A DNA stretch of 47,955 nucleotides from contig DATKWU010000018.1 in NCBI GenBank assembly GCA_035529375.1, positions 1 to 47,955 on the forward strand, given 5' to 3'. The notes under the pieces are model-generated. The model saw only the letters and a program-made list of their open reading frames with translations, was not told where the DNA came from and searched no databases. Both the position numbers and the translations under genes were made by a program. Origin of the DNA: Patescibacteria group bacterium (lineage in GTDB: Bacteria > Patescibacteriota > Microgenomatia > PFEM01 > JAHIFH01). Shown in pieces: positions 39,341-41,602 of this stretch. Position 1 is the stretch's first letter. Each line of letters opens with the position of its first letter.

Positions 39341-40024
39341 ATGAAAAAACCCATTTTACTTTTATCAATCTTTCTATCTTTTAGTCTTTTTTCAGTTGGG
39401 GCTTTGGCTCAAGAAGATGAAGATGCTCTTTCTTCCCCAATTCCCTCACCTGATGATGAAAGAATCAAAGAACAAGTTCAAGAAAGAATTGAAAATGTTC
39501 TTCAAGCGGCTGATGAAGAGAAAAAAGGCGCTTTGGTTGGTACTTTAAAATCAATCGCCAATTCAACCCTAACCATAGAAATAGAATCAGGTGACGCCCA
39601 AGTTAAAATCGATGATGAAACTGTTATCATTAATCCAGATAGAGACGAAATCGAATTAGAAGATCTCTCAGTCGGTAGTAAAATAATTGCCCTGGGTTAC
39701 ACTGAAAGTCAAACAACTCTTAATAGCAAAAGAATTATTGTTATCGAAGAATTCCAAACACCAGAAACCGAAGTCGTTTTCGGTGTGGTTACCGATATCT
39801 CTCAAGAAGAAAAAGTTCTGACCATCAAACATCCTAAAAATGAAAATATTTATATGATTGAAATTGGCAGTCAGACAACAATCACTAAGAAAATTGATGA
39901 AGAAATCGAAAAAATTAGCTTCAGCGATATCGAAGAAGATGACCGTTTGGTAGTGGTGGGTATCCCTGGAGAAAATGGCGAAAAGATGGTTACGGCTGAT
40001 TTGATTCGGGTTGTCACCAATTAA
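39341..40024 (+). CDS. secreted protein with repeated beta domains (DUF5666-like)
   Basis: 227 aa. Signal peptide MKKPILLLSIFLSFSLFSV with likely cleavage after ALA (residue about 23). The mature part has a helical segment (DDERIKEQVQERIENVLQ) and two similar OB-like beta units (about 60-135 and 145-225): GTLKSIANSTLTIEIESG and VFGVVTDISQEEKVLTIKHPKN, like DUF5666 repeats. Function unknown; likely an envelope protein. It follows the Ig-like gene by 18 nt, so a shared transcript is likely. Confidence 0.75.
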   Translation: MKKPILLLSIFLSFSLFSVGALAQEDEDALSSPIPSPDDERIKEQVQERIENVLQAADEEKKGALVGTLKSIANSTLTIEIESGDAQVKIDDETVIINPDRDEIELEDLSVGSKIIALGYTESQTTLNSKRIIVIEEFQTPETEVVFGVVTDISQEEKVLTIKHPKNENIYMIEIGSQTTITKKIDEEIEKISFSDIEEDDRLVVVGIPGENGEKMVTADLIRVVTN

Positions 40025-40062: not shown

Positions 40063-40091
40063 TTGACAAATAAATCCCTAAATAATAAAAT
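40063..40091 (+). promoter_or_regulatory. consensus promoter of the histidine attenuator/tRNA-His transcript
   Basis: TTGACA (40063-40068), exactly 17 nt, then TAAAAT (40086-40091). The expected start is about 40098-40101, at or just before the ATG at 40101 that opens the leader peptide. Confidence 0.8.
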
Positions 40092-40100
40092 ATGTCCGAG

Positions 40101-40145
40101 ATGACATCTTTATCTCTTCACCATCATTGCCAAAACCGCGAATAA
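40101..40145 (+). CDS. histidine leader peptide (HHH)
   Basis: A 14-codon ORF reading MTSLSLHHHCQNRE and ending in TAA, with consecutive CAC CAT CAT codons. An in-frame ATG three codons earlier (40092) lies directly after the -10 and is probably not transcribed. No Shine-Dalgarno is present, in line with a leaderless message starting near 40101. Its likely role is to sense His-tRNA charging by ribosome position; the peptide itself need not be functional. Confidence 0.75.
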   Translation: MTSLSLHHHCQNRE

Positions 40146-40212
40146 TCGTTGGTTGGTTTTGTAATGGAAGAGAAAAGATGATTTAATTAATTAAAGTAAA
40201 GAAAAATAAACG

Positions 40213-40236
40213 AAACCAGCTAACGGCTGGTTTTTT
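40213..40236 (+). terminator. attenuator terminator abutting tRNA-His
   Basis: AAACCAGC (40213-40220) pairs with GCTGGTTT (40226-40233) around a TAACG loop, with a six-T run at 40231-40236. The tRNA begins at the next base, so any functioning terminator here must be conditional for the tRNA to be made from the upstream promoter. Confidence 0.8.
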
Positions 40237-40309
40237 GGTGGCTGTAGCTCAAGGGTAGAGCGACTGTTTGTGGAACAGTAGGTTGCGGGTTCGAATCCCG
40301 TCAGTCACC
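40237..40309 (+). tRNA. tRNA-His (anticodon GTG)
   Basis: 73 nt. Acceptor GTGGCTG (40238-40244) pairs with CAGTCAC (40302-40308) with one G-U; the extra G(-1) at 40237 faces C73 at 40309, the histidine identity pair. Anticodon loop TTGTGGA gives GTG, T loop GGTTCGAATCC. CCA is not encoded. It follows the attenuator terminator directly and precedes hisS by 42 nt. Confidence 0.96.
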
Positions 40310-40313
40310 CAAA

Positions 40314-40342
40314 TTGTCAGTCATTATTAAAAATGTTATGAT
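40314..40342 (+). promoter_or_regulatory. secondary hisS promoter
   Basis: TTGTCA (40314-40319), 17 nt, TATGAT (40337-40342), nine bases before the hisS ATG at 40352. It would give a nearly leaderless hisS mRNA independent of the attenuated transcript. Confidence 0.6.
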
Positions 40343-40351
40343 CAAATAAAG

Positions 40352-41602
40352 ATGGCTAAAAATAAAACTCAAACCTTAAAAGGCTTTCGGGATTTTTTAC
40401 CGAAAGAGATGGTTATTCGCCAAAAAGTCATTGACACCCTAAGAGAGGTGTTTGAGTCTTATGGTTACGAACCTCTGGAAACACCCTCATTAGAATATGC
40501 GGAAACCCTTCTAGGCAAATATGGCGAAGAAGCCGATAAACTTATTTATACCTTTAAAGACCAAGGCAAACGTGATATTGGCCTTATTTATGATTTAACT
40601 GTCCCCGCTTCAAAAATCCTGGCTCTCTACTCTCAAGAAATTGGTCTGCCTTTTAAACGCTATCAAATCCAAAGGATTTGGCGGGCCGAAAAGCCTCAAA
40701 AAGGCAGATACCGCGAAGTCCTTCAGTGTGATATTGACTCCTTTGGTCTGACTTCTCCCCTAGCCGACGCCGAGATTATTGCCATTATTTATAAATGTCT
40801 AAAAAAACTAAATTTCAAAAAATTTATTATCAAAATTAACAGTCGCCAGGTTCTCTTAAAATTGATGTCAGACTTAAAGATAAAAACAGAGAGTAGACAA
40901 TTATCCCTCTTAAGAACGATTGATAAATTAGAAAAAATAGGGATAATTAAAACCAAAAAAGAACTTAAAGAAAAAGGTCTTTCCGATCAAGAATCAGAAA
41001 AACTTCTTGCTTTGATTAAATCAGCTAAACCGGATAAAAACCTTCAGCAACTCTTTGATTATCTAAAACAACTAAAAGTTGATGAAAAATTTTATCAATT
41101 TGATCCCACTCTGGTGAGAGGACTTGATTATTATACTGGTCCTGTTTTTGAAACTATTGTTGAAGAACCAAAAATAGGCTCAATTACTGGTGGTGGTCGC
41201 TATGACAAACTTATTTCTAATCTTGGTGGACCTGACATTCCTGCCACCGGCACCACCATTGGTCTGGATCGTATCTGTGATGTCATTAAAGAAAAAAACC
41301 TTATGCCTGAACTTACTTCTACATCTACCAAAGTCCTGGTAACCGTCTTTAATTCTGAATCATTAAAGAATTCAACTGAATTAGCCAATAAATTAAGACA
41401 GGCCAAGATTAAAACCGAACTCTATCTTGATCCGGAAACAAAACTAGATAAGCAGCTTAAATACGCTGATAGAAAAGGCATCCCTTATGTGATTATTCTT
41501 GGTCCCGAAGAAATCAAGAAAAAAATATTCACCCTTCGGGATATGAAAGCTAAATCTCAAGAAGAAGTAAATTTGAAACAGCTTCTAGATAAATTAAGCT
41601 AA
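40352..41602 (+). CDS. hisS: histidyl-tRNA synthetase
   Basis: 416 aa class II synthetase that charges tRNA-His. Motif 1 region (LKGFRDFLPKEMVIRQKVIDTLREVFESYGYEP), motif 2 with RPEKPQKGRYREFxQ-type sequence RAEKPQKGRYREVLQCDID, His motif LVRGLDYYTGPVFE and motif 3 TTIGLDRICDVI, then an anticodon-binding domain (about residues 325-415). The short upstream gap to tRNA-His places both behind the His attenuator, with a second promoter just before the gene. Confidence 0.96.
   Translation: MAKNKTQTLKGFRDFLPKEMVIRQKVIDTLREVFESYGYEPLETPSLEYAETLLGKYGEEADKLIYTFKDQGKRDIGLIYDLTVPASKILALYSQEIGLPFKRYQIQRIWRAEKPQKGRYREVLQCDIDSFGLTSPLADAEIIAIIYKCLKKLNFKKFIIKINSRQVLLKLMSDLKIKTESRQLSLLRTIDKLEKIGIIKTKKELKEKGLSDQESEKLLALIKSAKPDKNLQQLFDYLKQLKVDEKFYQFDPTLVRGLDYYTGPVFETIVEEPKIGSITGGGRYDKLISNLGGPDIPATGTTIGLDRICDVIKEKNLMPELTSTSTKVLVTVFNSESLKNSTELANKLRQAKIKTELYLDPETKLDKQLKYADRKGIPYVIILGPEEIKKKIFTLRDMKAKSQEEVNLKQLLDKLS

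Follow-up and report, generated by a model that had tools for sequence, protein, structure and literature searches.

Can transcription of a bacterial tRNA gene be governed by the charging of its own product? The expression of tRNA genes in bacteria is usually attributed to growth rate and to the strength of their promoters, and not to how well each individual tRNA is charged. The question is raised by a tRNA-His gene in the window, the 47,955-nucleotide stretch of DNA analysed here, which comes from a very small Patescibacteria genome (G000) of 843 kb that is 95% complete. The region 5' of this gene is very probably an attenuator of transcription that works through a ribosome, in the manner of the trp, his and phe leaders, with tRNA-His as its first target; the regulation is inferred, without transcript data for this uncultivated lineage. 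The elements occur in the order promoter, leader ORF, mutually exclusive pairings, intrinsic terminator, tRNA-His and hisS, as follows.

40063 to 40091, + strand: promoter P1, TTGACA (40063-40068) and TAAAAT (40086-40091) separated by 17 nt, 11/12 matches
40101 to 40145, + strand: leader ORF MTSLSLHHHCQNRE, 14 codons, ATG at 40101, TAA stop codon ending at 40145
40125 to 40137, + strand: strand 1 of the 1:2 hairpin, pairing with 40155-40166
40148 to 40161, + strand: strand 2, the 5' strand of the antiterminator, dG -18.2 kcal/mol, p=0.003
40211 to 40224, + strand: strand 3, common to antiterminator and terminator
40212 to 40236, + strand: intrinsic terminator, stem 40212-40221/40225-40234, T-run 40231-40236
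40238 to 40310, + strand: tRNA-His (GTG), beginning one base past the T-run
40314 to 40342, + strand: putative promoter P2 for hisS, TTGTCA, 17 nt, TATGAT
40352 to 41602, + strand: hisS, histidyl-tRNA synthetase, 416 aa (PF13393, E=1.7e-43; PF03129, E=1.2e-17)

The consensus promoter, the 14-codon peptide with three consecutive His codons (CAC CAT CAT, 40119-40127), the intrinsic terminator before tRNA-His and the placing of hisS after it had all been proposed in the initial annotation and were recovered here. From the position of P1, the RNA is expected to start near 40098; an in-frame ATG at 40092 precedes this start. The leader ORF is probably translated from a leaderless or nearly leaderless RNA, translation itself being inferred. 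Base 40237, just 5' of tRNA-His, is a G usable as G-1, and CCA is not encoded by the gene.

Strand 1 overlaps the last codon of the His run and those that follow. Its pairing with 40155-40166 was confirmed as previously described and extends further, to 40105-40180. Strand 2 begins 3 nt past the stop codon; a ribosome paused at that codon would mask it. The antiterminator had been drawn as a 10-bp helix (40152-40161 with 40211-40220). Its mutual exclusion with the terminator held, but the helix was too short: 14 contiguous pairs, three of them G-U, join 40148-40161 to 40211-40224. None of 300 dinucleotide shuffles gave a better duplex, so that the p value is the lowest obtainable with this number. 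The RNA fold of the whole leader had a z-score of -5.39 against shuffles. A combined promoter and terminator scan did not report the + strand terminator, apparently since the stem takes up some of the T-run; it was found by a separate terminator search. The same scan gave no promoter-like site on the + strand between the terminator and tRNA-His, so a tRNA transcript from here needs terminator read-through.

The effect of ribosome position was modelled in silico by constrained folding of the full-length leader, in which a 5' stretch was masked to stand for a ribosome of assumed footprint. Placing the ribosome on the first His codon or on the third gave about 15 expected pairs of the 2:3 helix and 0-0.1 terminator pairs. 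Placing it at the stop codon gave 0.1-0.2 antiterminator pairs and 9.6 terminator pairs. Without a ribosome, the long 1:2 hairpin and an intact terminator were predicted. Subject to the assumed footprints, these three states are those of the classical trp/his attenuator, and they bear out the two-state fold that had been anticipated, with the antiterminator when stalled at His and the terminator at the stop codon or without a ribosome.

The proposed sequence of events is as follows. RNA polymerase would start near 40098 and a ribosome would load onto the leader ORF at the 5' end or very close to it. When His-tRNA-His is ample, the ribosome would reach the stop codon at 40143 and cover strand 2; strand 3 would then pair with strand 4, and transcription would end just before tRNA-His. 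At low levels of charged tRNA-His, it would stall on CAC CAT CAT, breaking 1:2 and leaving strand 2 free; 2:3 would form, the terminator would be blocked and tRNA-His would be made. Read-through would continue into hisS, on top of transcription from its own probable promoter. Without translation, 1:2 would form and the terminator would fire. The parts, their order, their conservation and their mutually exclusive pairings rest on sequence and comparison; that the ORF is translated, that ribosomes stall on it, that polymerase reads through, that the tRNA is processed and that the system responds to histidine charging are inferences. The criteria for an attenuator are met in that there is a promoter with an ORF of cognate codons, a terminator ahead of the first gene, an antiterminator better than chance, a structure selected by ribosome position (in silico), targets for the same amino acid (tRNA-His and hisS) and conservation in relatives.

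For the comparison, no genome of the family or genus of G000 was included; three belonged to the same order (G001-G003). A His-rich leader ORF upstream of tRNA-His was found in 18 relatives of the same class, all of one family (f30). Slash-joined numbers below denote one locus fetched twice, and L038 and L193, which were weak or distant matches, were excluded from the count.

L146/L242: MASKTTGRLFHHRAC
L148/L224: MTNKSKLSHHHRPV
L150: MRQTSTNHHHHA
L152/L229: MIFAKVISNHHHTSK
L222: MNTLMSTHHHHHQ
L226/L296: MKLSISFHHHAN
L230: MNTAMENQIHHTSK
L232: MIQANVISKHHHTTN
L236: MINLSSKSTHHHAD
L238: MNTAMENSIHHTSK
L239: MISAIVISKHHHTTN
L243: MNTAVVILNHHHTTN
L244: MNSVIVILNHHHTTK
L245: MYTAIVISNHHHTSK (no terminator by the rule applied here)
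L248: MIQQTRLQRHHHAN
L249: MSNKTLCLNHHHANL
L250: MIQNLAQHHHTF
L293: MILANNIHHNHARV

By that rule, every listed leader except L245 was accompanied by a terminator. The His run was kept in relatives while the choice of CAC or CAT varied. A -10 element resembling TAAAAT or TATAAT sat 6-9 nt before the leader ATG in nearly all cases (9 nt in the window), so the leader ORF begins at or near the RNA 5' end; this would be attenuation on leaderless messages. In most leaders the antiterminator strand started about -2 to +3 nt from the stop codon. The complementarity test gave p<=0.05 in 22 of 31 rows, some of which were duplicate loci or close relatives. Within f30 the core TTGGCGG/CCGCCA was nearly invariant in a MAFFT alignment of 20 leaders, which was too uniform for a formal covariation test; changed pairs were seen only between lineages. 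The conservation foreseen for related genomes was borne out, without formal covariation, for the antiterminator, the terminator and the His runs, whose codons change synonymously. The gap between terminator and tRNA ranged from 8 nt to more than 200 nt in f30, so another promoter could intervene in some of these genomes.

A scan blind to His, in which regions were selected only on a -10 element, an ATG ORF and a terminator, found HH in 17/17 qualifying regions upstream of tRNA-His and in 12 of the 15 upstream of hisS (some duplicate fetches and close relatives were included). The same scan of 27 regions upstream of other tRNAs of G000 gave no qualifying ORF. Attenuator-like signals can arise by chance, and the gene at 39341-40024 stops only 38 nt ahead of P1; the terminator could in principle belong to that upstream gene, with the tRNA merely next in line and the His-rich ORF without meaning. 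This is very hard to reconcile with the antiterminator p value and fold z-score given above, with the conservation of all parts in relatives, or with the lack of any promoter left for tRNA-His past the terminator, and on the genomes compared it is contradicted by conservation. Recurrence of the layout in about 18 related genomes identifies a conserved control circuit, not a chance pattern, its regulation being inferred.

Many f30 genomes have a homologue of the 39341-40024 gene upstream of tRNA-His/hisS, and G002 and G003 have one upstream of hisS; none of the three same-order genomes has a leader before hisS. As judged from gene order, the window and f30 have this neighbourhood in common; the nearest relatives compared either lost the leader-tRNA module or never received it. 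The protein encoded at 39341-40024 has a signal-peptide-like N-terminus and no Pfam match.

Whether the attenuator serves the tRNA or the synthetase was considered next to the evidence for separate control of hisS. P2 has a TG preceding its second hexamer and lies 9 nt from the hisS ATG, and several f30 genomes have TGTTAAAAT-like elements at the matching position. hisS thus probably has its own promoter downstream of tRNA-His, which makes the tRNA the main target of the attenuator; the earlier proposal of control over both genes stands for the tRNA and is weakened for hisS. It could still be held that the leader serves hisS and that tRNA-His is a passive passenger of the operon. Control of aminoacyl-tRNA synthetases by leaders is already known, and in many relatives a His leader and terminator lie directly before hisS with no tRNA between (L008, L013, L036, L044, L047, L157, L181, L210). 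About ten f30 genomes, however, have another His leader (..HHTHTVVTNRRGVVLA and similar), with a terminator of its own, in the interval from tRNA-His to hisS, from which it follows that the first leader serves the tRNA, and in the window the terminator adjoins tRNA-His with the probable hisS promoter beyond the gene. The passenger explanation is accordingly considered unlikely. The second leaders failed the complementarity test, which covered only the region from just before the stop codon; a candidate antiterminator strand inside the ORF (CGGGGTG codons) was identified by eye only.

At L160, L229, L236 and L239 the CCA end of tRNA-His is encoded and overlaps the ATG that starts the second leader (..CACCCCATGA..), so that tRNA 3' processing would cut at this ATG. 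Small uncharacterised ORFs lie between the second His leader and hisS at L144 (MSQYYEIKRIVGYSYLDG...), L159 and L160. The ORFs of L060, L067 and L071 that end in ...VAHWLHHG... (records labelled Deltaproteobacteria, Patescibacteria and Peregrinibacteria) resemble His leaders but were left out, as they appear, on sequence judgement only, to be C-termini of TrpR-like regulators; these TrpR-type-regulator-like ORFs (..STATVTRVAHWLHHG..) are immediately 5' of hisS, with a terminator between.

The closed autoregulatory loop originally suggested requires a qualification. The tRNA does lie behind a gauge of its own charging, but the loop is not exclusive in G000: a second tRNA-His, beside tRNA-Arg (G000:C3:21286-21357), has neither leader nor terminator, which makes the attenuated gene an extra copy. 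The attenuated tRNA-His in G000 may therefore not set the total tRNA-His level. Genome searches suggest that most f30 genomes have one tRNA-His, the regulated copy.

About 28 other tRNAs of G000 were inspected upstream for the same design, which was found at one, tRNA-Phe on G000:C2 (L298:425-3721; L283). Here the order is rplT, Phe leader ORF MQVPTITQTAFFKFFFT, terminator, tRNA-Phe, pheS and pheT. The complementary strand of the leader forms a duplex of -18.3 kcal/mol, and the terminator (CTCCCCGAAAGGGGAG-TTTTT) lies about 10 nt before tRNA-Phe. The locus matched the Rfam Phe_leader family (RF01859) with E=7e-4, below the curated cut-off. Phe-rich leaders with terminators also precede pheS in several relatives, e.g. 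L309, L310, L313, L315 and L327, and tRNA-Phe is absent from these loci.

A further possibility was a tRNA-binding T-box or other riboswitch in place of a translated leader. T-box-like elements do precede tRNA-His in other members of the class and in other bacteria: at L037 (E=4e-16, then hisS), L114 (E=2.9e-7) and L116 (E=1e-3), both followed by a hisG-like ORF, and L121 (E=0.04), all scoring below the Rfam curated cut-off. The T-box reading of the window was rejected, since no match to RF00230 was obtained there even with a permissive search; the His-run ORF is also kept in relatives with synonymous codons. So little room is left for a riboswitch that the translated leader is retained as the explanation of the window.

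Loci L022, L025, L114, L116, L120, L121, L122, L156, L186 and L205 have a T-box-like element that includes a short hairpin, GGAGUCACGAUCC, in most cases upstream of tRNA-His or hisS. The hairpin is near the expected RNA 5' end and contains CAC, a possible His specifier. Where present, the antiterminator motif is UGGGACCGCG; L025, L156 and L186 are without it and run into a terminator before hisS. As its scored members fall below the Rfam cut-off, this element may be an uncatalogued compact variant.

Taken across the class, it is likely, though less firmly supported than the attenuator of the window, that placing tRNA genes behind attenuators of their own charging is a recurrent strategy, by means of codon-matched leader peptides whose RNAs are nearly leaderless (for His, in about 18 relatives and in G000; for Phe, in G000) or T-box-like elements (His). 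In f30 the apparently sole tRNA-His would be attenuated, which would close the loop fully, and hisS would have a second His attenuator. Transcription of a tRNA gene would thus be coupled to a measure of how well that tRNA is charged, the regulation being inferred. Lineages of one class have two unrelated sensors, leader peptide and T-box-like, at the same place, and lineages with very small genomes would still keep fine amino-acid-specific control. The natural feedback loop is open to testing in reporter strains, and searches for attenuators should take in tRNA genes as targets.

Several known systems resemble the window. The enterobacterial his operon attenuator (hisL; RF00514) likewise has a short ORF with a His run, mutually exclusive antiterminator and terminator, and transcription controlled by charged tRNA-His. 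It targets biosynthesis genes, whereas the window targets tRNA-His and hisS from a leader ORF at or near the RNA 5' end; against the window, His_leader RF00514 scored 16.4 bits (E=2.1), short of the curated cut-off of 49 bits. In the E. coli pheM-pheST attenuator (RF01859), the leader peptide codons match the amino acid of the downstream synthetase, as in the window and at the Phe locus of G000, where, unlike in pheM-pheST, the cognate tRNA gene stands between terminator and synthetase. A leader-peptide attenuator with a cognate tRNA gene as its first target was not found in the open-licence literature searched. His leader peptides have been predicted in bacilli upstream of hisZ and a hisS paralogue, with exchange of T-box and leader at hisS (Naville and Gautheret 2010, PMC2965389). 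These resemble the window in placing a leader peptide before a hisS-family gene and in the exchange with a T-box at the same gene; they belong to a different phylum, and in the section on these leaders no tRNA gene is described in the operon (PMC2965389). Within the open-licence literature searched, the novelty suggested for the window survives for the tRNA target and not for His leaders at hisS-family genes. The T-box (RF00230) also reads tRNA charging and controls aminoacyl-tRNA synthetases, and in other lineages a T-box-like element occupies the place of the window leader before tRNA-His; unlike the window leader, it needs no ribosome and binds uncharged tRNA itself. In the window the mechanism is of a known kind and the target is unusual; the arrangement is conserved throughout f30 and shared with the lineage of the window.
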